Source: Bdellovibrio sp. ZAP7
GTDB taxonomy: Bacteria > Bdellovibrionota > Bdellovibrionia > Bdellovibrionales > Bdellovibrionaceae
Reading direction: 5' to 3'
Assembly: GCF_006874645.1 (NCBI RefSeq)
Contig: NZ_CP030082.1
Span: 1,736,001 to 1,800,000 of the forward strand
DNA length: 64,000 bases
The position numbers and the translations under genes were made by a program. Below the pieces are notes generated by a model. It saw only the letters and a list, made by a program, of their open reading frames with translations. It made no database searches and was not told where the DNA came from. Position 1 is the stretch's first letter; each line of letters begins with the position of its first letter. This document shows, one piece after another, positions 454 through 46,105 of this stretch.

Positions 454-996
454 ATGCATCGGGTATTTAGAAGTACGACGGCGGGCGTGTTAGCTTGTTT
501 GAGCGCGCTCATGATTTTTTCAACACTTCTCACGGGTTGTAAATTCCAAACCGGTTGGGGATACAACAAAGGCTACGCTCCAGAGCAACCAATTGCCTTT
601 GATCACCAATTGCATGCGGGAACCAACAAAATTCAGTGTCAATACTGCCACAATCAAGTGGAAAGAACGAAACACTCGAATATTCCGGCTCTCTCAACTT
701 GCATGAATTGTCACTTGCAAGTAGCGACAGATAAACCAGGTATTCAAAAACTGCGTGATGCATACGACAGCGGCGGCTCAATTGAGTGGGTTCGCGTTCA
801 TATGCTTCCAGATTTTGTTCACTTCAACCACAACGCTCACATTGCGAAAGGCGTGAACTGTCAAACGTGTCACGGACCTATCGAAACGATGACGCGCGTG
901 GAGCAATTCTCTGACCTTTCCATGGGCTGGTGTGTGAACTGTCACCGCCAACCAGAGAACAAAGCTCCTCTTAACTGCTCAACTTGTCACTACTAA
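454..996 (+). CDS. actA: Alternative complex III subunit ActA, pentahaem cytochrome c
   Basis: ActA is the multihaem cytochrome c of alternative complex III and passes electrons from quinol oxidation towards ActE or a terminal acceptor. Five CXXCH motifs are visible (CQYCH, CMNCH, CQTCH, CVNCH, CSTCH), as known for the pentahaem ActA. The N-terminus has a hydrophobic segment ending in a lipobox-like LLTGC, so the protein may be lipid-anchored, or kept as an uncleaved anchor, on the periplasmic face. I chose the ATG at 454 because AAAGG at 443-447 is well spaced for it; the ATG at 448 is possible, and the open frame upstream to 340 looks non-coding. actB begins 17 nt after the stop. Confidence 0.92.
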   Translation: MHRVFRSTTAGVLACLSALMIFSTLLTGCKFQTGWGYNKGYAPEQPIAFDHQLHAGTNKIQCQYCHNQVERTKHSNIPALSTCMNCHLQVATDKPGIQKLRDAYDSGGSIEWVRVHMLPDFVHFNHNAHIAKGVNCQTCHGPIETMTRVEQFSDLSMGWCVNCHRQPENKAPLNCSTCHY

Positions 997-1013
997 GGGT
1001 TTCGGAAGGTATT

Positions 1014-4000
1014 ATGTCTGAAATGCATACTGATAATGAATTAGAGATGAAAAAAGCGTTGCGCCCGAAGATCGTGCGCGACACGAAATTCTGGGAAACG
1101 ATCGAAGAAAAGATCGGTGATGCTGAATTTCAAAAAATGGCAGAGACAGAGTTTAAATCTTCTCCTCTTCGTGAAAGCGACGGGGAAGACGGTTGGGCAC
1201 GTCGTGAGTTCTTGAAACTTATGGGTGCATCTTTGGCTATGGCGACAGCTTCTTGCGTACGTCGTCCCGTGCAAAAGATCGTTCCATACAACAAAATGCC
1301 TGAAGAGGTTACTCTTGGTCAGGCGAACTACTATTCATCTGCTTTCTTTGATGGTAACGATGCGATGGGCTTGCTTGTTAAAACTCGCGAAGGCCGTCCT
1401 ATTCATATCGAATCAAATCCTTCTCATCCGTTCAGCGCGGGTGGTTTGAGCGCTCGTTCTCAAGCGATTTTGATGTCCCTATACGATCCAGAAAGATTGC
1501 AAGGACCGAAACGCAACTTGTTCAATGAGAAAAAATCAAACTCTCAATTGATCGACGTTAAATGGGAAGAGCTAGATAAAAAAGTATCTGAGCAATTGGT
1601 AAAAGGCGGCGTTGTTGTCCTTTCTGCACCAATCTCTTCTCCTTCAACTCGCGCCGTGATCTCTGACTTCGCTCAAGGCTTCAAAGCTAAGACTGTGGTT
1701 TGGGATGCTTTCGCTCACGAAGAAATCCGTGACGGTCAAAAAGCTTCTTACGGTGAAGAAGTTGTCCCTCAGTACTGGTTCGATAAAGCGAAAATGATCG
1801 TTTCAATCGATGCAGACTTCTTGGGTACTTGGTTGAATCCGACTGCTTACACGCATCAGTTCACGCAAGGCCGTAAAGACATCAAAAACATGAGCCGTAT
1901 GGTTTCCTTCGATTCCAACTACTCATTGACGGGTGCAAATGCGGATATCCGTTTCAAAATCAAACCTTCACAACAACTTGATGTGGTGATGGGTCTTCTT
2001 CACGAAATCATCGTGAAAAAAGGCCAATCTTCATACGCTGGTAACAGTGCTGTGAAATCTGCTCTGGAGCCATTCGCTAATACAGCTGCGAAGTTGGGTC
2101 TTGATGCTGAAATGTTCGCAAAAGTAGCTTCTGATCTTTGGGCAAACAAAGGGACATCACTGGTTGTTGCTGGTGGTATCACGACTTTGACAAACAAAGC
2201 GACGGAACTGCAAATTGCTGTGAACATGTTGAACTCTGTTTTAGATAACGACGGTAAAACTGTTGATGCTAAAGCGGGTAACGTTGCATTGTCTGCTTCA
2301 TACGCTGAAATGGCGCAATTGATTCAAGATATGAAAGACGGCAAAGTTCAAACTCTTATCATGCACAAAGTGAACCCAGGTTACTCTTTGCCAGCAGCGA
2401 TGGGATTTGCTGAAGCTGTAAAAAAAGTTAAAATGGTTATCTACACAGGTGACCGTGTTGACGAAACGGGTGTTTTCGCGGACTTCATCACTCCGGATAA
2501 CCACGCGTTGGAATCTTGGAATGATTTGGAAGTTGGTAAAGGCGTGATCTCTATCTGCCAACCAGCAATTCGTCCTATGTACGACACGCGTTCGTTCCAG
2601 TTATCTTTGATGACTTGGGCGTTCATGGCGAAACAAGGTCCAGCACGTCTTCGTGATTACGAAACATTCTATGACTACTTGAGAGTTTACTGGAAATCAG
2701 ACATCCACCCGAAATACGGTAAAGGCGCAGCCTTTGAAGATTTCTGGTTGGAAGGTCTGCAAAAAGGTTATGTTGGTGAATTGAGCCGCGGTTCTTCTGC
2801 GCGTTCATTCAAAACTGACGCCTTCACTAATATCAAACCTGCGAAAGCCCAAGAAGGTATGGAACTTGTTCTTTACCCTAAAGTGGCGATCATGGATGGG
2901 TCATTGGCGAACGTGGCTTGGTTGCAGGAGCTTCCAGATCCAGTAACAAAATTGACTTGGGATAACTATGCGATGGTTTCTATCGGCACAGCCGAGAAAA
3001 ATCATATGAAAACGGGCTCTATGATCACTCTTAAAGTGGGTGATAAGTCTGTTGATCTTCCTGTTTACATCCAACCAGGTCTTCATGACGATGTTGTGGC
3101 AGTAGCTGTAGGTTACGGTCGCACTCGCGCTGGTAAAGTGGCAAACGGCGTTGGTAAAAACATGACTGAGTTCGTGTCAGTTGATAAAGCAGGCAAAGCA
3201 ATCTTTGCTGGCCAAATAGCGACATTCACTAAGCTTGGCAAACACTACGATCTAGCTGGTACGTCTGGTAACTTCTCTATGGAAGGCCGTCAAATCGCTG
3301 CTGAAGCGACTTTGAAAGACTACGTAAAAAATAAATCTGCGGGTATCCACAGACACGAGACTTGGTCTATTTGGTCAGGTCACGAATATTCTGGTCACAA
3401 ATGGGGTATGGCTGTTGATCTTCACACTTGCACAGGCTGCTCGGCTTGCGTGATTGCGTGCCAATCTGAAAACAACATCACTGTTGTTGGTAAGAAGTAC
3501 GTTCTTGAAGGTCGTATCATGCACTGGTTGCGTATCGACCGTTACTATCAAGGTGATATCGCAAATGCAGAAGCGGTTTTCCAACCGGTTATGTGTCAAC
3601 ACTGTGACAACGCTCCTTGCGAAACTGTTTGTCCGGTATTGGCGACAACTCACTCAGATGAAGGTCTGAATGACATGGTTTACAACCGTTGCGTTGGTAC
3701 TCGTTACTGTGCGAATAACTGCCCGTACAAAGTACGTCGCTTCAACTGGTTCAACTATGCGAAGTTGATTGAAAAACCAATGCACATGGCTTTGAACCCA
3801 TCTGTTGGAGTTCGTACTCGCGGGGTGATGGAGAAATGTTCATTCTGCGTACAAAGAATCCAGGATGCTAAAACTGTGGCTCGTAACGAAAAACGCCAGT
3901 TGAAAGACGGCGACGTTAAAGTAGCTTGCCAAACTGCGTGCCCAGCCGGCGGTATCGTGTTCGGTGATCTTAATGATCCAAACAGTGAAGTAGCTAAGAT

Positions 4001-4153
4001 TTGGAAAGCGGAAGAGAAAGAGCGTGGTTACGCATTGCTTGAAGAATGGCATGCAAAACCATCTGTTCGCTACCTATCCAAAATCCGTAACAATGATAAA
4101 GAATCAACTGGTGGCCACGATGGTCACGGTACTGCAAAACAAGGTGAGCACTC

Positions 4154-4157
<4 letters not shown>
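1014..4157 (+). CDS. actB: Alternative complex III subunit ActB, molybdopterin-oxidoreductase-like plus iron-sulfur domain
   Basis: ActB is the large peripheral iron-sulfur subunit of alternative complex III. The N-terminus (around residues 61-81) carries a twin-arginine signal [14 protein letters not shown], implying folded export. Residues of about 90-780 match the CISM molybdopterin-enzyme fold, which in ActB is known to lack the cofactor. The C-terminal part (about 800-1000) is a DmsB/NrfC-like ferredoxin domain with cysteine groups [29 protein letters not shown] and KCSFC; the family is described as holding three [4Fe-4S] and one [3Fe-4S] cluster. The start at 1014 has GGAAGG 4 nt upstream. 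The end overlaps actC by 4 nt (ATGA), so translation is coupled. Confidence 0.95.
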
Positions 4158-5514
<1,357 letters not shown>

Positions 5515-5515
<1 letters not shown>

Positions 5516-6039
5516 TGGCTGCTCAATATACTAAAGGTATTGCTGGTATCTGGCTTGAAGAATCAAAAATTCTTAAAGCCGCTACAAAAATGCGTGAATC
5601 TGGTTCTGATAAATTTGAAGCCATTTCTGCATACCCAATTCACGGTATGGAAGAAGCTTGCGGTATCAAACGCTCTTGGATTCCTTACGTAACTTTCGTT
5701 GCGGGTGTTGTAGGTTTGTCTGCTGGTTTGGGTCTGACTTATTGGACTTCAGCAGTCGACTGGGCAGTGAACGTAGGTGGTAAACCATTCTTCTCACTTC
5801 CAGCTTTCGTACCTATCATGTTCGAATTGACTGTCTTGTTTGCAGCTCTTTCTTCTGTAGGTGCTTTGTTCTATGCGTGCAAAATGCCACGTATCGACCC
5901 ACCGGTTATCGATCCAGATTTAAGCTGCCATAAGTTCGCAATCTTCGTTCCTCACAATGACAATATCTATGATGAGACGAAACTGACGAACATGTTCAAA
6001 GAACTTGGCGCAGTTGAAGTGAAGAAGACGGAGTACTAG
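5515..6039 (+). CDS. actD: Alternative complex III subunit ActD (DUF3341)
   Basis: The 174-residue protein fits DUF3341 in size and position. It has a soluble N-terminal part containing YPIHGMEEACGI, two membrane helices (about residues 58-82 and 95-120), and a C-terminal soluble ferredoxin-like part. ActD is a structural membrane subunit of alternative complex III without known cofactor. The start codon overlaps the actC stop (TAATG), with GGAGG 11 nt before it, and actE follows after 2 nt. Confidence 0.92.
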
Positions 6040-6041
6040 AA

Positions 6042-6623
6042 ATGAAACATCTTGTGAAAATTACTCTAGGTGTAGCAGCAGCAGGCTTGGTGGCGTCAGC
6101 GCTAACAAGCTGTGGTCCTCGCGGCAACAATCCTAACGTTGAGATCATTCAAGATATGATGGAATCTCCGGCGATCAAAGCTCAGGAGTATGATGAATCC
6201 TCTCCTCACCACAGCGGCATGCGCGTACCTCCGGAACATACAGTTCCTCAAGGTTTCGAGCCATATCGTTATGCAACGGATGTTGAAGGTGCTGCAAAGA
6301 ACCTTAAAAATCCACTTGCTGGTAAAATGGATGATGAGACTCTTTTGACGGGTCAAAAATACTACGAAACAAACTGCGCAGTTTGCCACGGCTATAAAGG
6401 CGAAGGCGGCGAGAAGTCTGGTGTACCGGTGTCTACTAAAATGGCATTGAAGCCACCTGCACTTTTGACTGACAAAGTTAAAGGCTGGCCAGATGGTCAC
6501 TTGTACCACGTGATCACGATGGGACAAGGTGTGATGGGCCCTTATGCTTCTCACATTCCGCAAAAATACCGTTGGCAGGTTGTTAACTACATTCGTTTCC
6601 TTGAGAAACGGGATGGTAAATAG
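6042..6623 (+). CDS. actE: Alternative complex III subunit ActE, monohaem cytochrome c lipoprotein
   Basis: The 193-residue protein begins with a signal peptide and a lipobox-like ALTSC, so it is a probable lipoprotein on the periplasmic face. One haem motif, CAVCHGYKGEGG, sits in a class I cytochrome c fold, and a candidate Met axial ligand is present in the ITMGQGVMGPYA region. ActE is the likely exit point of electrons from alternative complex III to a terminal oxidase or a soluble carrier. It lies between actD and actF with gaps of 2 nt each. Confidence 0.92.
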   Translation: MKHLVKITLGVAAAGLVASALTSCGPRGNNPNVEIIQDMMESPAIKAQEYDESSPHHSGMRVPPEHTVPQGFEPYRYATDVEGAAKNLKNPLAGKMDDETLLTGQKYYETNCAVCHGYKGEGGEKSGVPVSTKMALKPPALLTDKVKGWPDGHLYHVITMGQGVMGPYASHIPQKYRWQVVNYIRFLEKRDGK

Positions 6624-6625
6624 AT

Positions 6626-7825
6626 ATGGGCGAACATAAACACGTAGATCTACATTTGGGTAAATTCGAAGCACCTCAGTGGATGAAAACATTGAGCTTC
6701 GTTTTGATGGCGATCGGTTTGATCACATTCGCAGTGGGCTTGATCAAAAATCAAGACCGCTTGTGGACTTCATACTTGGTTTCTTTCTTTTTCTTCTCTT
6801 GCTTGGGCTTGAGCGGTCTTTTTTGGGTTGCTTTGAACAACGTTGCGAAAGCAGGTTGGTCAGTTTCTATCCGCCGTTTTGCTGAAGCGACGACGGCATT
6901 CATTCCATTCATCCTGGTATTTGGTTTGATCTTGTTGTTCGGTTTCAAAAAACTTTTCATCTGGGCAGATCCAAAAATCATCGCTGAAAATCCAGTGATC
7001 GCGGCAAAAACTGCTTACTTGAATCCGACATTCTTCGTGATTCGTTTGTTGGTTTTCGTTGTGGGTTGCATGATCTTTAAATGGGTGATGGTTGGTAACT
7101 CTTTGAAACAAGATAAATCAGGTGATGACAACTTGACTCACAAAAACGTGGGGCCGGCAGTAGGCTTCATCGCGTTCTTCGCGTTGTTGTTCTCGTTTTT
7201 CTCTGTGGATTTGATCATGTCATTGCTTCCAACTTGGTACTCTACAATCTTCGGGATCTATTGCTTCTCTGGATTGTTCCAAGCAGGTCTTGCGTTCTTG
7301 GCGATCACGATCGTGTTCATGAGACGCTCTGGTTTGGTCAAAGGCTATGTTACTGTTGAACATCAACATGACGTGGTAAAATACCTTAAAGGTTTCTCGA
7401 TCTTCTGGGCTTACATCGCATTCTCTCAATTCATGTTGATGTGGTACGCGAATTTGCCAGAGGAAACTGAGTACTACATCATGAGATCTTTGGGCGGCTG
7501 GATGCAAATCTCCGTAGCTCTTTTGGTCTTCCGCTTCGTAGTTCCTTTCTTGGCTTTGCTTCCTCGTGATGCAAAAAGAAATGATGCGAACGTGTTGTTG
7601 ATCTCTACAATCGTATTGATCATGCAATATGTAGATATCTACTGGATGGTGTATCCAAACTTTAACGATGGGGCGATCGTATTCGGTTTCTGGGAAATCG
7701 GTATCTTCGCGGGCTTCGCTGGTTTATTCCTTCTTTGCATCATGAACTTCTGGAGCAAAAACAACTTGGTTCCAGTTAAGGATCCACGCATGCACGAGGC
7801 ACTAAACCACCACGTTGCGTACTAA
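6626..7825 (+). CDS. actF: Alternative complex III subunit ActF, integral membrane protein
   Basis: The 399-residue polytopic membrane protein (about ten hydrophobic segments) is a shorter relative of ActC/NrfD and closes the operon in the canonical position after actE. Acidic and histidine residues within helices are a known feature of this subunit and have been proposed to take part in proton movement; that role is not settled. No actG or cytochrome oxidase gene follows; a terminator at 7885-7913 ends the transcript. Confidence 0.92.
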   Translation: MGEHKHVDLHLGKFEAPQWMKTLSFVLMAIGLITFAVGLIKNQDRLWTSYLVSFFFFSCLGLSGLFWVALNNVAKAGWSVSIRRFAEATTAFIPFILVFGLILLFGFKKLFIWADPKIIAENPVIAAKTAYLNPTFFVIRLLVFVVGCMIFKWVMVGNSLKQDKSGDDNLTHKNVGPAVGFIAFFALLFSFFSVDLIMSLLPTWYSTIFGIYCFSGLFQAGLAFLAITIVFMRRSGLVKGYVTVEHQHDVVKYLKGFSIFWAYIAFSQFMLMWYANLPEETEYYIMRSLGGWMQISVALLVFRFVVPFLALLPRDAKRNDANVLLISTIVLIMQYVDIYWMVYPNFNDGAIVFGFWEIGIFAGFAGLFLLCIMNFWSKNNLVPVKDPRMHEALNHHVAY

Positions 7826-35562: not shown

Positions 35563-36273
35563 TTACTTCAAGTTCAAATAATACTTGCGCTCTTTCTCGG
35601 GGAATTTTTCGATAGCATAGCGAAGCATCGTGCGCGGCATTTGTGTCGCGTATTTGTCGAGGAATTTTCTCTCGGCTTTGGCGTCACGATTTCCCACTTC
35701 ACGAAGCATCCAGCCCACAGCTTTGTGAATCAGATCGTGCTTATCGTGCAAAAGAATTTCCGCAATTTTAAAAGTGTCGACAAAGTCTTTTTGGCGCAGG
35801 AAATAGAACGTCGACATGATCGCAATTCTTCGCTCCCACAGATTTTTTGATTTCGCGTATTTGAAAAGGATCGCGCGGTCTTTTTCATACAAGTAAGGCC
35901 CTAAAACCGCCGGGGCAATGGTGTCCACCAGATCCCAGTTGTTGATGCCTTTCCTATATTTAATTAAAAACTTAAAAATACGGGTTTGGCCGGTGGCATT
36001 TTCCTTAGGAAACCTCTGTGACAGAATTATTAAGGAAATGAGTCGTTCCTCATGAATGGGGGATTGGAGCAGGGTTGCAAGCTCTGTGAAAGGTAAGTCC
36101 TTGAAAGTCTTAGCAACCGCGCGGCTTTGACCCACGGTTAGCCCTAAAAAGACGTCGCCCTCCGCGTACTCGCCCGGGCCGGTTTTAAAGAATCTCTGTA
36201 ATACAGGAACCCGTGTTTTGCTTTGCAAACGCTTGATTTCTTTTTGAATTGTCATGAATTGATCATATTCCAT
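35563..36273 (-). CDS. DNA alkylation repair protein, AlkD-like
   Basis: The 236-residue all-helical protein matches the AlkD/AlkC HEAT-repeat glycosylase family: DLPFTELATLLQSPIHEERL, NNWDLVDTIAPAVLG (with the conserved Trp-Asp), WERRIAIMSTFYF and KAVGWMLREVGNRD. AlkD removes alkylated purines without flipping the base. I start at the ATG at 36273; the open frame extends to 36312. Confidence 0.9.
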   Translation of the reverse strand: MEYDQFMTIQKEIKRLQSKTRVPVLQRFFKTGPGEYAEGDVFLGLTVGQSRAVAKTFKDLPFTELATLLQSPIHEERLISLIILSQRFPKENATGQTRIFKFLIKYRKGINNWDLVDTIAPAVLGPYLYEKDRAILFKYAKSKNLWERRIAIMSTFYFLRQKDFVDTFKIAEILLHDKHDLIHKAVGWMLREVGNRDAKAERKFLDKYATQMPRTMLRYAIEKFPEKERKYYLNLK

Positions 36274-36393
36274 TTTAATCACCCGCGTCGACAGCATTTT
36301 GATAAACAACAACGCTTGATTGGAGTCATGGTCTTCATTAGGATGCGCCTCTATTCTTTAACAAATTTGAATACTAAAAAACAGGAGAACAAA

Positions 36394-37008
36394 ATGAAAA
36401 AGTTTATGATGATGCTTTTGTCTTTGAGCTTTGTTGGTACAACAGCAATGGCATTCGAAGGTGCATTCGTTCCAAACGAAGATGGCGCGACAGTTCAACC
36501 TTTGAGAGGCATTTGCCCGGCTAAACCAGTTAAAAATGGTAACTACTGCAAACCAGTTGGCAACTCTTGCCCATCTGGATACGACCAATTCGCAAAACTT
36601 TGCTGGGGTGGTTGGAAAAAAGGTTTCTACAAATGTGGTATCTCTTGTAAGCCTAAAGAACAATGCGGTTGGAATCCACACGGTGACTACCGTTGCGGCA
36701 ACCCAGGTTACGGTCCAAATCCAGGGCATCACTTTGCAGCCGTTGAAGGCGTGTTGAAATTGAATGTAGACGGCGCCGTTGAATTGAAAGCTGCTAAAAA
36801 CATCTGTGAAGTTCAAGGTTCTGTTGCTGGTGATAACGATCATTGGACAGTTTGCCGTCCCGCTGACGGTGTGAACTGTGCTCCTGGTTACAAACGCATG
36901 AACAAATATTGCATCGGTAGCTGGAAAAAACCTTTGTACCGTTGTGGTTATGTTTGCGAAAAATCTCGCAATGCTAACGACGATGGCAACGGTGGCGGCA
37001 TTAACTAG
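36394..37008 (+). CDS. Secreted Cys-rich protein, two-module paralogue 1
   Basis: The 204-residue product has a signal peptide ending at TAMAFEG. The mature protein holds two copies of a Cys module: a first unit with YCKPVGNSCPSGY, KLCWGGWKKGFYKCGISC and an added CGWNPHGDYRCGNPG, and a second with VCRPADGVNCAPGY and KYCIGSWKKPLYRCGYVC. The even number of cysteines and the signal peptide point to a disulfide-rich exported protein. AGGAG precedes the ATG. Two paralogues lie at 37067 and 40775. No known family recognised. Confidence 0.82.
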   Translation: MKKFMMMLLSLSFVGTTAMAFEGAFVPNEDGATVQPLRGICPAKPVKNGNYCKPVGNSCPSGYDQFAKLCWGGWKKGFYKCGISCKPKEQCGWNPHGDYRCGNPGYGPNPGHHFAAVEGVLKLNVDGAVELKAAKNICEVQGSVAGDNDHWTVCRPADGVNCAPGYKRMNKYCIGSWKKPLYRCGYVCEKSRNANDDGNGGGIN

Positions 37009-37023
37009 TTAGTTGGATTATTC

Positions 37024-37052
37024 AAGGCTCCCGTTCCGGGGACCTTTTTGTT
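37024..37052 (+). terminator. Terminator between the two Cys-rich paralogues
   Basis: A 10-bp stem with one mismatch (AAGGCTCCCG / CGGGGACCTT) is followed by a T-rich tail. Confidence 0.75.
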
Positions 37053-37066
37053 TTTTCGGAGAAGAT

Positions 37067-37642
37067 ATGAAAAAAATGATGATGATGATTTTGTCTTTGG
37101 GATTTGTCGGCACAACAGCAATGGCTTTTGAAGGTGCTTTTGTTCCAGCTCTTGATGGCAACGCTAGTGTTCAACCTTTGAAAGGTACTTGCTCTGCGGA
37201 ACCAACTCCAGGTGGCAACTATTGTAAGCCAGTTGGCAACTCTTGCCCTGCAGGTTACGACACTTTCGCAAAACTTTGCTGGGGTGGTTTGAAGAAGGGT
37301 TTCCACAAATGTGGTATCTCTTGTAAGCCAACATCTCAATGTTCATGGAACAACAGTGGTGATTACCGTTGCTCTGGCGATCACGCTCACAACTTGTCTG
37401 CAGTTTCAGGTGCTTTGCAATTGAATGCAGAAGGGGGCGTTGATCTTTTGAAAGCTAAAAAAACTTGTGAAGAGCTTGATCCAAGCCAAGCTTACCAAGG
37501 AAACACTTGTACTCCAGCTGATGGCAAAACTTGCTACGCTCCCTACAAGCGTATGGCTAAATACTGCTTCGGTGGTTGGAAACGTCCATTGTACAAATGC
37601 GGTATCGTTTGCTCGGTTCCTCGTGAACCAACTCAAAACTAA
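37067..37642 (+). CDS. Secreted Cys-rich protein, two-module paralogue 2
   Basis: The 191-residue product is a close paralogue of the preceding gene, from the signal peptide (SLGFVGTTAMAFEGAF) onward. The first module holds YCKPVGNSCPAGY, KLCWGGLKKGFHKCGISC and a shortened CSWNNSGDYRCSGD; the second has TCTPADGKTCYAPY and KYCFGGWKRPLYKCGIVC. A terminator separates it from its neighbour, so each copy may be expressed independently. It arose by tandem duplication. Confidence 0.82.
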   Translation: MKKMMMMILSLGFVGTTAMAFEGAFVPALDGNASVQPLKGTCSAEPTPGGNYCKPVGNSCPAGYDTFAKLCWGGLKKGFHKCGISCKPTSQCSWNNSGDYRCSGDHAHNLSAVSGALQLNAEGGVDLLKAKKTCEELDPSQAYQGNTCTPADGKTCYAPYKRMAKYCFGGWKRPLYKCGIVCSVPREPTQN

Positions 37643-37687
37643 GATCGTCTGATTTTAGATTGAAAGCTCCGGTCGCGGAGCCAAATG

Positions 37688-37720
37688 AAAAGCCTGTTCT
37701 GAGAAGAACGGGCTTTTTTA
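37688..37720. terminator. Bidirectional terminator
   Basis: A 13-bp stem AAAAGCCTGTTCT / AGAACGGGCTTTT with one G-U pair is followed by TTTTTATTTTT; it serves the Cys-rich gene and the converging DMT gene. Confidence 0.9.
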
Positions 37721-38638
37721 TTTTTCAACGGCCTTGGTGCCGTTTGAATTGTAACTCAATATCAAGATCGTGCAGATAATAAGAGTCGCACCAATCCAAT
37801 CCGACGTATCAAATTTTACGTCCATCCACAGAACTGCAACAAATGAGGCGGAGAGTGGCTCGGCACAGGCAAGGAGACTTGCCTTTGTGGGGCCGATGAA
37901 GCGAACGGCAGTTAAGTAGGCAAAGAAAGCAAATAAGCTTCCGATCAAAACGATAAATCCAATCGAGGCGATGCTGGTAAAGGTCCAAACAGCTTCCGAT
38001 GAAAACGGAGACTTGAATAGTGATATAATTATTCCACCGATTATCATGCCCCAACCCAAAACAACGGTTGAATCGTTATTTTTCAACAGGGGAACGGGGA
38101 TGATGGAGTAAATGGCGAGTGTCACCGCTGATGCCAGGCCAAGAATTAGCGCTTTGTTGCTGATCGCGAGGGTCTTGAGATCTCCATGTGTTACCAGGAG
38201 CGCGGTTCCTAACATGGCTAAAATCACCGCCGTGGCTTCAATTCGTGTTGGGAGTCGTTTGTATTTTGCAGCGTAATAGGCCGTGATAAAAAGCGGCCCC
38301 AGGTATTGCAAGATGGTTGCGGTCGCCGCATTCGATGCTGCAATCGCCGCAAGGTAAGTATATTGAACTCCCAACATGCCAATGACTCCGAACGTTCCCA
38401 GGCGGAGTGCAGTTCTGCGATCTTTCCAGAGTGCAAAGATTTTGCGACCGGAAATCTGTGAAAAGATCAAAAGTATTAATCCTGAAATCAGAAGGCGAAT
38501 GGTGACCAGCCATTCGAGATTCACGTTATAGCTTTCGAACACAAGCTGAGAAAAATTGCCGGAGACACCCCACGCCGTTGCCGCCAATATAGCAAGCAGA
38601 CTTCCGATAAGTGTTTCACGCTGTTTAGAACTATTCAT
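37718..38638 (-). CDS. EamA/DMT-family transporter
   Basis: The 306-residue protein has about ten membrane helices in two EamA halves, with the typical GSLLAILAATAWGVSG start and a C-terminal repeat ending SFVAVLWMDVKFDTSDWIG. The family exports amino acids or other small metabolites; the substrate is unknown. I start at the ATG at 38638; the frame extends to 38692. Confidence 0.88.
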   Translation of the reverse strand: MNSSKQRETLIGSLLAILAATAWGVSGNFSQLVFESYNVNLEWLVTIRLLISGLILLIFSQISGRKIFALWKDRRTALRLGTFGVIGMLGVQYTYLAAIAASNAATATILQYLGPLFITAYYAAKYKRLPTRIEATAVILAMLGTALLVTHGDLKTLAISNKALILGLASAVTLAIYSIIPVPLLKNNDSTVVLGWGMIIGGIIISLFKSPFSSEAVWTFTSIASIGFIVLIGSLFAFFAYLTAVRFIGPTKASLLACAEPLSASFVAVLWMDVKFDTSDWIGATLIICTILILSYNSNGTKAVEK

Positions 38639-38726
38639 AATGTGAAGATAGCCCGTTGCTAAAGTAAGTAAAGAATAAACTATATGGTTCATTTACAAAT
38701 CATCAGTCGTTAAATATCCTTATGTC

Positions 38727-39863
38727 ATGAAGAGTTCCACTTATATAAACCTTCTTTTAAATCCTCAGAGTCTCAATAAGGGAAAGTCTATCCTTACTGC
38801 GAGCGAGGTGGCGAGTGACGTCGGACTTCTGATTCAGGCTTTAGAGTACGCTTATCCGGCGAAATGGATCATGAGTTCCGATTCGTGGGCCGATGTTCTG
38901 CAAAAAATTAAAGCGGTTCATTTTGAAGAAAATGTTTCGAATGAAGTTTTCGGTTCTGCTTTGGCCGATATCTTGTGGCAGATCCCTGATGGTCATCTGG
39001 CGGTGAAGCTCGATGGAAAAGTATTGGGCGAATTCCTTCATATACAAACGAAAATGCCCTCTACCGGTCATAATCTGGTTAGTTCTGGATCAAATTTAGC
39101 TTGGAATGTTGAGCAGAGGAAAAGTGCGACTGGCGTAGTATCGATTGTCGCTATTTCTCATTTTCCTCCGTCTTCGGATCCTCAGTGGTTTGGTTTTTCG
39201 GAAGCGATTCGCGGCACCCTGGATTCATCAGCTGTGATCGTAGATTTACGGGGAAATGTTGGCGGGGACGACGCCAAAGGTATTGAGATGGTATCCATTC
39301 TTCTGGGGCGAGAGCTTGAGATGGATTGGGTTCAAGAGGTTGTCTGTGAGACAGCTGAATCGTTGGCTCTTCAAATCAATACTTACGAGCTCATAATTTG
39401 GAATCGCTATACTTCTAAAAATATAACACCACCTGCCGAGCTGACAGATCATCTTGATTCATTAAAAGGTAAAGCGAACGCACTTGCGCTTGGTGCGAAG
39501 GATGGTGGCAAGGTAGTCGTTGACCACGCGCCAAGGTCTGCAACCTCTGAGACGACGCTGGCTTTTAAGAATAAGATATTCGTTTTAGTTGATCCGGTGA
39601 CGGCCTCCAGTGGCGAGTGGGCCGCACTTTATTTAAAGCGACACCCCAATGCTGTGATTGTGGGTGAAAACACCCGCGGGATGATTCACTTTGGAAATTC
39701 GGGTTTGCTGTATTTGCCCCATAGCGGTCTTTGTATTACTCTTTGTATGAAAATTAATGATCTCACAGATGGCCGCTTTTTTGAAAGAACGGGAATTGTT
39801 CCCGATATGCGAATTGCGAACAGGGATTCTCTCGAATATGTTCTAAGTTTAGGTATTGAATAA
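38727..39863 (+). CDS. S41-family peptidase-like protein, no signal peptide
   Basis: The 378-residue protein matches the S41 (C-terminal processing/tricorn-like) peptidase core: VIVDLRGNVGGDD and FVLVDPVTASSGEWAALYL, where the Ser near residue 293 is the candidate nucleophile. There is no PDZ domain that I can see, and no obvious signal peptide, which is unusual because most S41 proteases are exported. The gene lies 2 nt upstream of a CPBP membrane protease gene in the same operon. Activity is inferred. Confidence 0.82.
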   Translation: MKSSTYINLLLNPQSLNKGKSILTASEVASDVGLLIQALEYAYPAKWIMSSDSWADVLQKIKAVHFEENVSNEVFGSALADILWQIPDGHLAVKLDGKVLGEFLHIQTKMPSTGHNLVSSGSNLAWNVEQRKSATGVVSIVAISHFPPSSDPQWFGFSEAIRGTLDSSAVIVDLRGNVGGDDAKGIEMVSILLGRELEMDWVQEVVCETAESLALQINTYELIIWNRYTSKNITPPAELTDHLDSLKGKANALALGAKDGGKVVVDHAPRSATSETTLAFKNKIFVLVDPVTASSGEWAALYLKRHPNAVIVGENTRGMIHFGNSGLLYLPHSGLCITLCMKINDLTDGRFFERTGIVPDMRIANRDSLEYVLSLGIE

Positions 39864-39865
39864 GA

Positions 39866-40627
39866 ATGAAAAACATCATTTATGGACTGTGGCTTATTGC
39901 CTATATCGTGCTTTCTTACTTCTTTTTTGTGGAAAGAGATTTTGCCACGGCTTTTTACAGTTGGTTGGGGTTGGTGATCGCAGTCGGTTTCGTTAAATCG
40001 CAGCGAGAACAATTGAAGCTTCTGATTTTGATCGGGGCATGTTTCACGGTTTTAAGAATCTTAGTGTATTCCAGTCCATTTTTAGAATGGCCAGTGGATT
40101 TTTATCTGGTGGCACTTTTTGGATACTTCCTTCTGCGCTTTGGTTTTCGCCAAAAGCCCGAAAAATTAAAGTGGTCTTTAAAGTTTTCAAAGCGGGAGTG
40201 GGCCTCAATATTTATCATTAATATTCCGGCCGTCGGTATTCTGCTTTGGTACTTTAAATTGCATCCCCAAGTCGCAGAGATGTTTCCGGAGCTGAATGTG
40301 CCGCTGTGGGGACTGCCTTTGGTGGTTTTGCTCCTGGCTGCCGTTAATGGTTTGCGTGAAGAGATCTTTTATCGAGGCCTGATACAGCCGGCTTCTTCGG
40401 TCAGCTCTCCTGCATGGTTCGTTGTTGGTTTACAGGCGGTGTTGTTCGGTTTTATGCATTACGCGAATTCGTTTCCCGAGGGTTGGTTGGGAGTTGTTAT
40501 GACCGCCGCATGGGGAGCTGCCATTGCCATTCAGTATCGTATGTTTAAATCCATTTCTTTGGCCTGGTTGACTCATACGATCGCTGATGCCGTGATGTTT
40601 GGAATTATTCTATTTGTGCGATCTTAA
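39866..40627 (+). CDS. CPBP-family intramembrane metalloprotease
   Basis: The 253-residue protein has about eight membrane helices and the CPBP/Abi motifs: LREEIFYRG (EExxxR), FGFMHYANSF and a final WLTHTIADAV. Family members include CAAX-prenyl-protease relatives and bacteriocin-immunity proteins. It is coupled to the S41 protease gene, so the pair may process the same substrate or protect the cell from a peptide. Confidence 0.88.
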   Translation: MKNIIYGLWLIAYIVLSYFFFVERDFATAFYSWLGLVIAVGFVKSQREQLKLLILIGACFTVLRILVYSSPFLEWPVDFYLVALFGYFLLRFGFRQKPEKLKWSLKFSKREWASIFIINIPAVGILLWYFKLHPQVAEMFPELNVPLWGLPLVVLLLAAVNGLREEIFYRGLIQPASSVSSPAWFVVGLQAVLFGFMHYANSFPEGWLGVVMTAAWGAAIAIQYRMFKSISLAWLTHTIADAVMFGIILFVRS

Positions 40628-40774
40628 TCAAGATTGTCGGGAATTTTTAGCGTGTTTTCATTAAGGGAACACTTTCGCTATTTGCGCTTGAATCATTACA
40701 GAATTTATCAGTGACAGGAATAGCTGTTCCGAATTTAGCTTAGTGCACTTCAATCAAAAAAATAAGGAGTCACT

Positions 40775-41140
40775 ATGAAGTTCTTGTCCACGCTTGTTCT
40801 TTTGTTCGCCTTCCTGGGGTCGGCAGCTCATGCCTACCAAGGCACTTTGGAGTTCACGCAAGACGGTTCTGTGGTTGTAAAGCCTTTGTCTGTGAAATGT
40901 ACGCCAGATATCGCGGATCAGGACAATGCGCCTAGTTCTTGCGTTCCAACCGGCAAAGACTGTCCTGAACACTACACTCACTCAAGAAAATACTGCTGGG
41001 GTGGCTGGAAACGTGGGTTCTATCACTGTGGATACGCTTGCAACCGTAAGGCGGAATGCAAATGGGGCCCTCACGGTGATTACAAATGCGGTAACCCAGG
41101 CAGCGGACACAATCACGGCAGCAACCCAGGTCACGGTTAA
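40775..41140 (+). CDS. Secreted Cys-rich protein, one-module paralogue 3
   Basis: The 121-residue product has a signal peptide ending at SAAHAYQ and one copy of the same module as the genes at 36394 and 37067: SCVPTGKDCPEHY, KYCWGGWKRGFYHCGYAC, and CKWGPHGDYKCGNPG, then a Gly/His/Asn-rich tail (HNHGSNPGHG) that could bind metal. AAGGAG is 7 nt upstream of the ATG. It sits 3.1 kb from the tandem pair. Confidence 0.82.
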   Translation: MKFLSTLVLLFAFLGSAAHAYQGTLEFTQDGSVVVKPLSVKCTPDIADQDNAPSSCVPTGKDCPEHYTHSRKYCWGGWKRGFYHCGYACNRKAECKWGPHGDYKCGNPGSGHNHGSNPGHG

Positions 41141-41204: not shown

Positions 41205-42245
41205 TTAAGGCTTTGTGAGCTCCATGCGTACCAAGTTGCGGCCGGCATAAATGTTTAATAATGCCATTTGAATCTTTTGATCCATTTCTTCGATAGCCGC
41301 GACCAGTTTTGCGAAGTCTTCTCCAGAAGCATTTTTTACGTCGATACGAGGCAAAAGATCCTGCGGCCGTTGCAGGTTTTTGACGATCCTTAAAAACATT
41401 TTATCGTTGAAGGCTTGAACCGTCACCTCTTTGGAGGGTCCAAAGATTCGTGTGAGTTGGTCTTGCGCCATCTTGTCAGCGCGGGCTGCGCGATAGCCGT
41501 CCGCCAGGATTTTCATATAGTTCAATCTGATAAAGATATCACCAGTGTAGTCACTCAGAGGCGGCAAGGCCGGGTAGTTGGTTAGCAGAATGCCATCGTA
41601 TGTTGTCAGCTTTGCTTGATATTCAGTGATATAATCATTTACGAAGCTATAGAGCTCTTTTTTGTTTTTGCTAAGACGTCTGAACATATCTGCTCGACCT
41701 GCAATCCCACCGAAATCAGTCTGCAAAGAACCCGGCTTGGCGTAGCCGTTCACAGCTAAATAAAATCCAGACTGCTGTTGCAGTGTCGTTGCCTGTTCCT
41801 CGTTAAACCCGATCAAATGAGAATACTCATGAATCATTAGCGACAACACCTGGGACTTAAAGTTATCCAGTTGAAGCTTCGTTTTAAGTGTCCACGTGCT
41901 GACGCAAATGCTGTTGCTTGGAGTGCTGTAAGCGGCAGCATCTTTGCTTTCGCCATTGGCATAGCAGGCGTCGTGGCCAATGACGTTGATTGGGGTGTTG
42001 ATTACCACCTGACGAAGTTTTTCCAATAATTCTGGCGTCAGAGGTGAATTTGCGGGATTCCACATCCAGCTGTGAATCAGAAATTGGGCATCTCTTTGGA
42101 TGTTGCGAAGAGTATCGACCAACAGGTCTTCGGGAACGTGTTCGCTTTGCTGGGAGTCGCCACCACTGCCAATACGTACGGTATTGGTCCATGCGGCAAA
42201 GGGAATAAGAGTGATATAGATCAGGCTTAAAATAAACTTCTTCAT
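41205..42245 (-). CDS. Secreted putative zinc metallopeptidase (HEXXH)
   Basis: The 346-residue product has a signal peptide (residues 1 to about 20) and a zincin motif HEYSHLIGFNEEQ near residue 137, where HExxH is followed by a Glu four residues after the second His. The C-terminal half is helical. A zinc-dependent peptidase in the periplasm or outside the cell is plausible; the family is not one I recognise. Its start overlaps the TIGR02147 regulator stop by 4 nt, so it is the second gene of that operon. Confidence 0.78.
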   Translation of the reverse strand: MKKFILSLIYITLIPFAAWTNTVRIGSGGDSQQSEHVPEDLLVDTLRNIQRDAQFLIHSWMWNPANSPLTPELLEKLRQVVINTPINVIGHDACYANGESKDAAAYSTPSNSICVSTWTLKTKLQLDNFKSQVLSLMIHEYSHLIGFNEEQATTLQQQSGFYLAVNGYAKPGSLQTDFGGIAGRADMFRRLSKNKKELYSFVNDYITEYQAKLTTYDGILLTNYPALPPLSDYTGDIFIRLNYMKILADGYRAARADKMAQDQLTRIFGPSKEVTVQAFNDKMFLRIVKNLQRPQDLLPRIDVKNASGEDFAKLVAAIEEMDQKIQMALLNIYAGRNLVRMELTKP

Positions 42246-43132
42246 ACTGGTAACTCCGTAAATGATTCCATTTTTTGCCCACTGTGAGACGTGTTTTCTT
42301 TTAAAACTTCGCTGGTCGCAAAGATGTTAAAATTCATTTGAAAAATGCGGGCGCCATTCAATTCTTTTGAAGTGTAACGAGCAGAAAGGGCATCAAAAAA
42401 CTCTTCCAGGTCGCGTTTTACGAGCGTGTACTCGTTGTCGTTCAAGGTCATCAGAAGGGTTCCAAAATGCCGAGTATTAATAGGAGCAGAGAGAGCATCC
42501 TGAGCTTCACCGAGGCTTTTATGATGAAAAGCCATCAGGGCCACATTCCCCAGTTCCGTTGGGATGTCCAAATCTTGCTCAGTCGCTTTCCAGCTATTTG
42601 ATTCATCATCGAAATAAGATAGTCCACAGGCTTCGATGCTTTCCAAAATTTCTAGTGCTTCTTTCTGGGGCAAATTAAAAGTATTGGCCACGTATTCCAC
42701 AGTACAAGTCAGTGACTTCAGACTCAGAAGTAAATGAACCCGGGGAGTTTTTGGATTGCGCAGAAAGTTGTAAACATCGGAAACTTTTTTTCCGCGCTGG
42801 TTTTTATTGAGCCTTAACATCTGCTGGAAATGATATTCTTTAATACGTATATTTGTGGCGTGGGTATATGCCACCAGATTTTCAAAGTATTCGCCATCAA
42901 TTTGGCTGAGCTTTAAAGATTGCAAGACCGGCGCAATTGAATCGAGCCCCAGGTTTCTTTTGCCGATGGAAACCTGTTGCAGGAAGCTGCGACTTTTAAA
43001 ACCGCATTGCAAAGTCCATGTACCAAAGGAGAATGTCGCTGATCGTTCCTTATTATACTGATACCACGCCTGCAAAAACTGCCGATAGTCGACGTAATCC
43101 ATGACTTGTGGTTTAGGTTTGCTCGTACTCAT
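42242..43132 (-). CDS. TIGR02147-family regulator-like protein
   Basis: The 296-residue protein matches the TIGR02147 family (DUF4423-like): DYVDYRQFLQAWYQYNKE at the N-terminus, an HTH-like region with FKSRSFLQQVSIGKRNLGLDS, then GEYFENLVAYTHATN. The family is abundant in Fibrobacter and Bdellovibrio relatives; a DNA-binding role is proposed from its HTH-like start, not proven. I start at the ATG at 43132 and treat the frame to 43201 as upstream sequence. It is coupled to the HEXXH gene and divergent from a small secreted protein gene. Confidence 0.82.
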   Translation of the reverse strand: MSTSKPKPQVMDYVDYRQFLQAWYQYNKERSATFSFGTWTLQCGFKSRSFLQQVSIGKRNLGLDSIAPVLQSLKLSQIDGEYFENLVAYTHATNIRIKEYHFQQMLRLNKNQRGKKVSDVYNFLRNPKTPRVHLLLSLKSLTCTVEYVANTFNLPQKEALEILESIEACGLSYFDDESNSWKATEQDLDIPTELGNVALMAFHHKSLGEAQDALSAPINTRHFGTLLMTLNDNEYTLVKRDLEEFFDALSARYTSKELNGARIFQMNFNIFATSEVLKENTSHSGQKMESFTELPV

Positions 43133-43151
43133 TTTCGTGTTCTCTTTCGAA

Positions 43152-43226
43152 ACCTTGAATACACTTAAAAATGAAATCAGGAAAGGATTGTGCATAACCA
43201 TATGAAATATTTGCTGTATTCAAGGT
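43152..43226. promoter_or_regulatory. Long-spaced inverted repeat in divergent promoter region
   Basis: ACCTTGAATACA (43152-43163) and TGTATTCAAGGT (43215-43226) form a perfect 12-bp inverted repeat with a 51-nt spacer, between the TIGR02147 gene and the oppositely oriented secreted protein gene. It looks like a paired operator for a regulator controlling both directions. Confidence 0.65.
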
Positions 43227-43337
43227 GGACTACGAATTGTAGTTTTGGATTCTCGTAAATTATTGAATTTTCAGTGTACGCCACGTAGTTTTCGCCAAAA
43301 CAAAAAAGCTGGTGTCAGCGAAAACAAGGAGAAACCA

Positions 43338-43754
43338 ATGAAACAAATTATTTTGACGATTCTGACGTCCCTTATGAGTGCATCTGCTTTTGCGGGAGGA
43401 GCCCTCATCCCACTAAAGGTTGAAGTGACACGCTATCAAGACGGCGCTATTCTTTGCTCAGTGACTAATTATGTAGGGACTGACGAAGAAACATTGTTCC
43501 GTTGCCCAGTGGCTTTGCAAATGAATGTTAACGCAAAGTTTACCTCTGCCCCAGGCGTGCGAATTGGTAACGGGGATGTTTATTTCTTCGCTGATTTGTC
43601 TGCGGCAATTCAATTGGATAATGGTGCTGTTGGGTATGAGTTCATTGGATTTAATGAACGAAATCAAAAGGCCGTGTTTCATGCCAACAGCAAGCAGGGT
43701 ATTGTGACCATCACCCTGACTCCTGATTATCGTCCGAAACAAATTGAACTTTAA
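43338..43754 (+). CDS. Small secreted protein of unknown function
   Basis: The 138-residue product has a signal peptide ending at ASAFAGG. Two cysteines (ILCSV, LFRCPV) may form a disulfide in a beta-rich domain. AAGGAGA lies 5 nt upstream of the ATG, which is why I do not use the open frame back to 43245. It is divergent from the TIGR02147/HEXXH operon and shares its inverted repeat, so it may be part of the same regulated function. Confidence 0.78.
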   Translation: MKQIILTILTSLMSASAFAGGALIPLKVEVTRYQDGAILCSVTNYVGTDEETLFRCPVALQMNVNAKFTSAPGVRIGNGDVYFFADLSAAIQLDNGAVGYEFIGFNERNQKAVFHANSKQGIVTITLTPDYRPKQIEL

Positions 43755-43784
43755 TAACCCCCGGGCATGGGTTAACTCCATCGC

Positions 43785-45116
43785 CTAAGACATTTTAAGA
43801 AGACGACTTTTTATTTCGTCTTCTTTGTCGCTGAGGTCTTCGCAAGTTTTTATATTCAGTTTGCACTCTCGTTCAAGGTTACCCAAGGTCTGCTTGAAAA
43901 GACTGTTGAGGGTGTCCATTTCTGAAAGTCTGGAGCTCAGGCTTTCTCCCGCACCCACTCGTGCCATTTCTATTTTTCCCACCACATGCAGCACTCCCAT
44001 ACCCGAAGTTACTTTGTTTAAAGTTTGGATGGAACTGAGCAGTGATTTACTGATGTGATTTAATTTCTCAGAGATTTCTCCCACCGATTGAATATTTTTG
44101 TTGATCAGATAGCGGATGGGTTCGCAGTTCAGTTGAAAAGATCTTTCAGTCTCAGCATCAAAGTCCTCCTTTTTTTGGCACGCCAACGAGGTTTCTTCTG
44201 CCAGCTGATTCATCATTTCAATTTGAAAACGAGAAATAGCCACCGCCACAAACATTTCAAAAACAGATTTTGAATAGTTTTTGAAAACGTCTTCGAAATG
44301 ACCGGAGCTGATGGCAATTTGCGAGGTGAGCTCTTGGAGGTTGGCAGCGACGGCACCCAGAGGTTTGCCCTCTTCTTTCAGGCGAGAGGCGGCGACCATC
44401 AGGTTGAGGGTCACAAATTTAACTTTGTGGCAGGTTTCAAGAATTTCTTCGCAATCTTTAAACAGGGGCGCGGTTTGCTCAAACAGTTGATACGCTTTGG
44501 AAAAGGTGAGGCGGGCGGCTTGCGTATTCATTGTGGAGTCGTGAATGAATTTTTCCAAGGCTTCTATTTGAAATTGTGATTTGATCTCGGTGATTTCGGC
44601 GGATTGCAGAAGGTGGTCGCGGCTGGACATTTCTTCCAGTAAAGCGCGGCACATAAAATCAGAATAGTCAGCAAAGCCCAAAGTTCGCAGGCGTTCTTCA
44701 ATCAAGGTGATTCCTTCGTCTAAAGGTAGACCCATGGTTTCCTGTGCTGTTAAGTCTTGATAGAGAGCCTGTACGATCGGAAAATATTTTGAACTGGGTT
44801 TTAAACGAATCGATAAAAATCCGTCTTCTAAGGGAAAGGCCATCGCAAAAACCCAATAGTACCGACCAGTTTTACTTTTGTTTTTTACATAGGCGGCGAT
44901 GGGTTTGTTCGCGTCGAGGTAATTCCAAAAGAGTTTAAAAACCGCGCGAGGAGTGTCGGGATGGCGAATGATATTGTGGGGGCGGTTTAATAGGTCTTCG
45001 CGCTCATACTCACTGACTCGGACAAAAACGGTGTTGCCAGATTGGATGATCCCTTTGCGGTTGGTTTTGGAAAAGAAGAGTTCGTGATACGAAAAGTCGG
45101 CTTCCTGCTTGCTCAT
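43785..45116 (-). CDS. PAS-domain protein with degenerate chemoreceptor-like signalling region
   Basis: The 443-residue protein has no membrane segment. Residues of about 15-115 are an Aer-like PAS domain (HNIIRHPDTPRAVFKLFW, GRYYWVFAMAFPL). The rest is long helical sequence, and KFVTLNLMVAASRLKEEGKP resembles the conserved hairpin of methyl-accepting chemotaxis proteins (ALNAAIEAARAGE), but with the key residues altered. It may sense a ligand or redox state and signal through helical bundles; coupling to CheA is uncertain because the tip is degenerate. Confidence 0.78.
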   Translation of the reverse strand: MSKQEADFSYHELFFSKTNRKGIIQSGNTVFVRVSEYEREDLLNRPHNIIRHPDTPRAVFKLFWNYLDANKPIAAYVKNKSKTGRYYWVFAMAFPLEDGFLSIRLKPSSKYFPIVQALYQDLTAQETMGLPLDEGITLIEERLRTLGFADYSDFMCRALLEEMSSRDHLLQSAEITEIKSQFQIEALEKFIHDSTMNTQAARLTFSKAYQLFEQTAPLFKDCEEILETCHKVKFVTLNLMVAASRLKEEGKPLGAVAANLQELTSQIAISSGHFEDVFKNYSKSVFEMFVAVAISRFQIEMMNQLAEETSLACQKKEDFDAETERSFQLNCEPIRYLINKNIQSVGEISEKLNHISKSLLSSIQTLNKVTSGMGVLHVVGKIEMARVGAGESLSSRLSEMDTLNSLFKQTLGNLERECKLNIKTCEDLSDKEDEIKSRLLKMS

Positions 45117-45346: not shown

Positions 45347-46105
45347 TTAAGAATGCTTTTGTGCGTAAGTAAAGAGGGCGATGGACGCCGCCACGGTGGC
45401 GTTCAGGGACTCGACGCCTTCAGTAGGCACAGCCAAGCGATTCAAGCCCTTGATGCCACTAAAGCCGGGACCTTCTTCGCCAATCACTAGGCGTAAGTTC
45501 ATTGGCCAATTGAATTTAGCGACACTTTCGCCCTTCATATCCAAGGCATAGATATCGCCATGCGATTGGACGAATTCAGAAAACTTTCCAGCTTTTAAAA
45601 TTGGAAGCTTCAGTAACGCCCCTGCAGAGGCTTTGATGGCTTTCGGATGGTAAGGTGTGCAGCTTTCCTCGGTCAGGATGATTTTGCTGACTTTAAAGGC
45701 CACCGCAGAGCGCGCCAGGGCCCCTAGGTTTGAAGGGTCCCCTAGGGGAGCAATGACTTCTAATCCCTCTGCTTTCGCTGAAGGATTCAGTGCTGGGATT
45801 TCTTTGGGTTCAAGCACCAAAAGATTGAAATGCGTGCCGATGACGTCCACTTCGTTAAACATCGCTTTCGGAAGTTTATAGATAGGGATGCGCTGAGTTT
45901 TTGAAATCGGGTGAGTCAGAGTCACGGACTTTAAGTCTTCGTGAACGATCTCGGCTTTGATTTTATAATTCGGATTAGCTAGAAATTCCTGAATAAGCTT
46001 TTCACCCATCAAGATAAACTCGCCGTGTTTTTTAATACCGCGTGAAGATGCTAAATCTGTCCAGCGACGAAAGTGTTCGTTGGTTTTTGAAGAAATCTCG
46101 ATCAT
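45347..46105 (-). CDS. SpoU/TrmH-family RNA 2'-O-methyltransferase
   Basis: The 252-residue protein has an N-terminal substrate-binding domain (about 1-100) and the C-terminal SPOUT knot: PLGDPSNLGALARSAVAF (motif 1), LVIGEEGPGFSG (motif 2) and VPTEGVESLNATVAASIALF (motif 3). It transfers methyl from SAM to ribose in rRNA or tRNA; the target nucleotide is unknown. Its start overlaps the stop of the rsmG gene. Confidence 0.93.
   Translation of the reverse strand: MIEISSKTNEHFRRWTDLASSRGIKKHGEFILMGEKLIQEFLANPNYKIKAEIVHEDLKSVTLTHPISKTQRIPIYKLPKAMFNEVDVIGTHFNLLVLEPKEIPALNPSAKAEGLEVIAPLGDPSNLGALARSAVAFKVSKIILTEESCTPYHPKAIKASAGALLKLPILKAGKFSEFVQSHGDIYALDMKGESVAKFNWPMNLRLVIGEEGPGFSGIKGLNRLAVPTEGVESLNATVAASIALFTYAQKHS

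Follow-up and report, generated by a model that had tools for sequence, protein, structure and literature searches.

What are the three cysteine-rich genes that lie between alkD-like and trmH-like genes in Bdellovibrio sp. ZAP7, and what might a predator use them for? At the first reading of a Bdellovibrio genome, about a third of the genes lacked any homologue with a known function (PMC10482364). The window analysed here is a stretch of 64,000 nucleotides of contig NZ_CP030082.1, in which an earlier note, made from the sequence alone, had described genes at 36394, 37067 and 40775 encoding a signal peptide and a common module. Open reading frames begin at these positions, and the module counts are as claimed: two in P1, two in P2, and one in P3 followed by a His/Gly tail (Table 1).

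Table 1. Features of the alkD-trmH interval, in window coordinates
Feature	Position	Strand	Description	Basis
alkD-like gene	35563..36276	-	DNA alkylation repair; conserved left border of array	Pfam PF08713 E 3e-62; synteny
P1	36394..37008	+	signal peptide + two modules: first 8 Cys, second 6 Cys	
Terminator-like hairpin	37029..37052	+	between P1 and P2; P2 ribosome-binding site directly 3'	
P2	37067..37642	+	signal peptide + two modules: 8 Cys and 6 Cys	
Terminator-like hairpin	37687..37724	+	3' of P2	
P3	40775..41140	+	signal peptide + one 8-Cys module + His/Gly tail	
trmH-like gene	45347..46105	-	conserved right border of array	RNA methyltransferase by sequence; synteny

P1, P2 and P3 are predicted to be exported, as the earlier note had proposed. 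Ribosome-binding sites (AGGAG, GGAG and AAGGAG, respectively) lie just 5' of their starts, and each frame opens with what by eye is a signal peptide: an MKK or MKF start, a hydrophobic stretch and an AMA or AHA end. No lipobox was seen by eye in any of the three.

The five modules of the window are homologous by every pairwise comparison, scoring 12.6 to 46 SD above shuffled sequence. The first modules of P1 and P2 (P1a and P2a) are 76% identical, and these two and P3 carry the CxW-x3-GDY[RK]C tail that had been noticed on some modules. The module pattern written down in the earlier note fits the second modules only loosely (CRPADGVNCAPGY, CTPADGKTCYAPY). P1, P2 and P3 are the full set, with no fourth family gene in the whole 4,123,562-base genome; a genome scan with P1 alone as query gave no match. 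The original description of a family of three paralogues is thus complete for this genome but too narrow for the family, which extends across the genus.

A four-cysteine core is the invariant part of the module. Its form, C-x10-C-x10-C-G-x2-C, was derived from 47 modules, 41 of which have a core of 27 residues and the others a shorter loop. Behind a signal peptide, the looser pattern C-x(8-12)-C-x(4-12)-C-G-x2-C covers 47 modules, all five of the window among them, so that the family numbers at least 47. Cysteines outside the core number zero or two on its N-terminal side and zero or two on its C-terminal side, never one, once signal-peptide cysteines (three members) and one member's more distant first cysteine are set aside. 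Seven small members carry an additional, fifth cysteine within the core. Gain and loss of flanking cysteines in pairs argues for disulfides, and we infer that the modules carry disulfide-bonded cysteine pairs. The earlier label of disulfide-rich also accords with the oxidation genes of the whole genome, which has one VKOR match and three DsbA-like matches; a DsbB match was sought there and was absent. A single 403-residue frame (L123, G000:C1:2009612-2010733) bears both VKOR and DsbA-like matches.

Structure prediction points to a beta-hairpin at the module core, bearing conserved lysine and aromatic residues. The AlphaFold2 model of P3, built from nine sequences, is of moderate confidence (pLDDT 71.7, pTM 0.55), fair from residue 1 to about 70 and disordered in the tail. 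The two-module model of P1 is poor (55.2), with the same two core strands recurring in its first module. Alignments for both models were shallow, drawing on window and L098 sequences only. Neither solved structures nor viral models gave a fold match, and model quality is too low to prove a new fold. The cores have a mean net charge of +3.3 and a mean of 5.2 aromatic residues in about 27, a composition suited to anionic envelope polymers; individual charges run from -2 to +7, which means that a cationic face is not universal.

The family is nearly restricted to Bdellovibrio. Of 24 Bdellovibrio genomes, each a species, 19 gave convincing members in a profile search with 29 modules (20 if a 29-residue frame in G016 is counted), as did a single genome, G035, from a sister genus. 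The other five Bdellovibrio species have no convincing member, nor does any other among 369 genomes of the phylum. Three more genera of the phylum gave weak matches (L095-L097), which were rejected: the frames have only 53-78 residues, and the two inspected lack a signal peptide. None of the 14 genus g3 genomes that were searched carries the family; one of them, of 2,657,893 bases, is presumably the epibiotic B. exovorus JSS. Three members occur in G006 (3,782,950 bases), which we take to be B. bacteriovorus HD100; they lie at 2686648-2687016 on the minus strand, at about 2380253-2380366 on the minus strand and at about 1208133-1208240 on the plus strand. A scan for K[YFL]CW[GA]GWx[RKH] in 84,980 species genomes yielded one confirmed locus, in Bdellovibrio; this motif misses divergent members and may omit near relatives, and so probes the range outside the phylum only lightly. 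Phages, plasmids and viral contigs gave no match, and mobile spread was dropped as an explanation. Such a range fits a role in predation without proving one. Convincing members are lacking from most of the other Bdellovibrionaceae genera, among which there are probably predators.

The genes sit at a conserved site with variable contents. Arrays lie between alkD and trmH in G022, G021, G011 and L098, and a single copy in G007; species have one to four module genes there, and the intervening genes vary too. Relative to G022, most flanking genes are 88-97% identical, whereas the genes for an S41 peptidase and a CAAX protease that separate P2 from P3 (38727-40627) are only 69% and 64% identical, possibly through replacement by recombination or through fast change. 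Between P3 and trmH (41205-45116) lie genes for a 346-residue exported protein, a DUF4423 protein, a small exported protein and a PAS protein; G022 lacks all four at this place, and G021 carries others instead. These differences make the interval appear a variable site. Across 20 regions, no recurrent partner gene was found beside the copies beyond orthologous synteny, and no adjacent immunity gene or dedicated export gene of the kind that marks toxin-immunity or bacteriocin loci; there is thus no sign of a toxin-immunity arrangement.

The two-module genes are best read as fusions of adjacent one-module genes in which the internal signal peptide was lost. L098 has four consecutive one-module genes, and P1 aligns in one frame across two of them (45% over 211 residues). 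In a module tree with few columns and many unresolved forks, the second modules of P1 and P2 (P1b and P2b) form a clade with the fourth L098 gene (support 100/99). Fission in L098 is the alternative to fusion and is compatible with the same data. In G011, one gene unites a P3-type module with a P2b-type module. In G021 the first modules of P1 and P2 cluster within the species, the pattern expected from gene conversion. Recent duplication, which the earlier note had inferred for the genes, suits the first modules, given their 76% identity; the second modules are older paralogues in the tree.

Codon usage suggests that P1 and P2 are made in bulk. Their codon adaptation (0.758 and 0.743) lies above both the mean of ribosomal proteins (0.708) and the median of the window (0.44). 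When each protein recoded with the average codons of the window serves as reference, P1 stands at +7.3 SD, P2 at +8.4 SD and P3 at +2.7 SD. The index behaves sensibly, with genes for the respiratory Alternative complex III among the other top scorers of the window; strong bias extends over 984-7825, which also holds a gene for a 399-residue neighbour without a Pfam match. High expression is not family-wide, since HD100 members have only average values (0.41-0.48). All three window genes are under purifying selection relative to G022, with dN/dS of 0.075 for P1, 0.227 for P2 and 0.062 for P3.

Signals around the genes bear on how they might be transcribed. P2 starts about 15 bases past the first terminator-like hairpin, which is retained with base changes in G022 and G021, and may therefore rely on read-through. 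Upstream of P3, a conserved block at 40695-40730 (ATTACA ... GTGACARG), common to G022 and G021 and in part to G011, is possibly a promoter or regulator site. No FliA-type promoter was seen by eye.

We tentatively favour an account in which P1, P2 and P3 are lineage-restricted, exported, disulfide-stapled proteins whose cationic-aromatic hairpin binds an envelope polymer during predation; this is possible, though short of probable. Each module is a four-cysteine core, predicted to fold as a hairpin, with one or two optional extra cysteine pairs; the VKOR and DsbA-like proteins would oxidise it in the periplasm. P1 and P2 would be abundant, and the cationic-aromatic face would bind an anionic polymer such as LPS or peptidoglycan on the predator surface or in the prey interior, two-module forms acting as bivalent binders. 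Counting for this account are the mean charge and aromatic content of the cores, the paired cysteines, lipobox-free signal peptides, P1 and P2 codon bias, dN/dS of 0.06-0.23, a range of Bdellovibrio plus a sister genus with absence from the 14 g3 genomes, and core strands in both models. Counting against it are the spread of core charge (-2 to +7), the lack of convincing members in five of the 24 species and in most of the other Bdellovibrionaceae genera, average codon bias in HD100, a model of moderate confidence and no fold match that hints at binding. It is a long shot that the module represents a small, novel fold which arose within the Bdellovibrio lineage and which, while the predator lives in the prey periplasm, coats or binds the prey or predator envelope in bulk.

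Other uses of the cysteine-rich module are less likely than envelope binding. Structural coat or matrix proteins, cross-linked into a layer on the predator or within the bdelloplast, would account for a codon bias in P1 and P2 like that of ribosomal proteins, as well as for two-module forms, and the odd fifth cysteine of one clade could give dimers. Even cysteine counts in most members nevertheless favour closed modules, five species do without the family and the HD100 members lack strong codon bias; a structural layer is unlikely. Metal binding, with cysteines and His/Gly tails holding copper, zinc or nickel in the periplasm, is doubtful, for while every core has four conserved cysteines and several members have strong tails (HD100_A, G019 and G020, for example), many lack the tail, the paired gain of flanking cysteines indicates disulfides and no metal-handling gene recurs nearby. 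Small, exported, disulfide-rich and sometimes two-headed proteins are a frequent layout for inhibitors, and the family shares it; that the modules shield the predator from its own released proteases is still more doubtful, given that no inhibitor matches in sequence or fold and no protease neighbour is conserved, the nearby S41 peptidase occurring only in the window and G022. Least supported, and very improbable, is antagonism of prey or competitors by antimicrobial peptides, to whose cationic, aromatic, disulfide-stapled hairpins the family hairpin may be likened in composition only, because no immunity or export partner recurs, and selection is strongly purifying rather than diversifying.

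The envelope-binding account concerns a family that is well bounded, small, modular and nearly genus-restricted, and that the window species, to judge by codon bias, seems to produce in large amounts. Because the genus to which epibiotic B. exovorus seems to belong lacks it, a link to life in the periplasm can be tested, and the three HD100 members bring deletion and localisation within easy reach.

Known systems resemble the family in kind more than in sequence. Searches of Pfam, NCBIfam, PHROGs, PADLOC and PDB sequences gave no match above chance, in keeping with the earlier note, which had named a significant Pfam match as its refuter. MXAN_6577-like proteins (NCBIfam NF041328) are likewise bacterial and cysteine-rich, with a weak local match to P3, and were rejected as relatives: one of 18 members matches, at E 0.017-0.026 and 15 bits against a cut-off of 100, where the best score across the whole genome is 12.5 bits. 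EGF_4 and EB modules (Pfam PF23427 and PF01683) are also extracellular, cysteine-rich and found in repeats; they too were set aside, one family member matching each (best E 0.043-0.051) at 13.5 and 7.2 bits against gathering cut-offs of 27 and 24.3. Closest in character is Bd0675 of B. bacteriovorus (CASP14 target T1074), a small exported predator protein of unassigned function with conserved disulfides (PMC8616854). Unlike the family, it is a 134-residue beta-roll with two disulfides and an (R/D)PGGX-CGX motif, found also in Halobacteriovorax (PMC8616854); compared by description, the core patterns differ, and no PDB sequence matched the family, the Bd0675 entry included if deposited. The family is real, well bounded and unnamed in the libraries searched, and its kind, the small exported disulfide-rich protein, is a familiar one.
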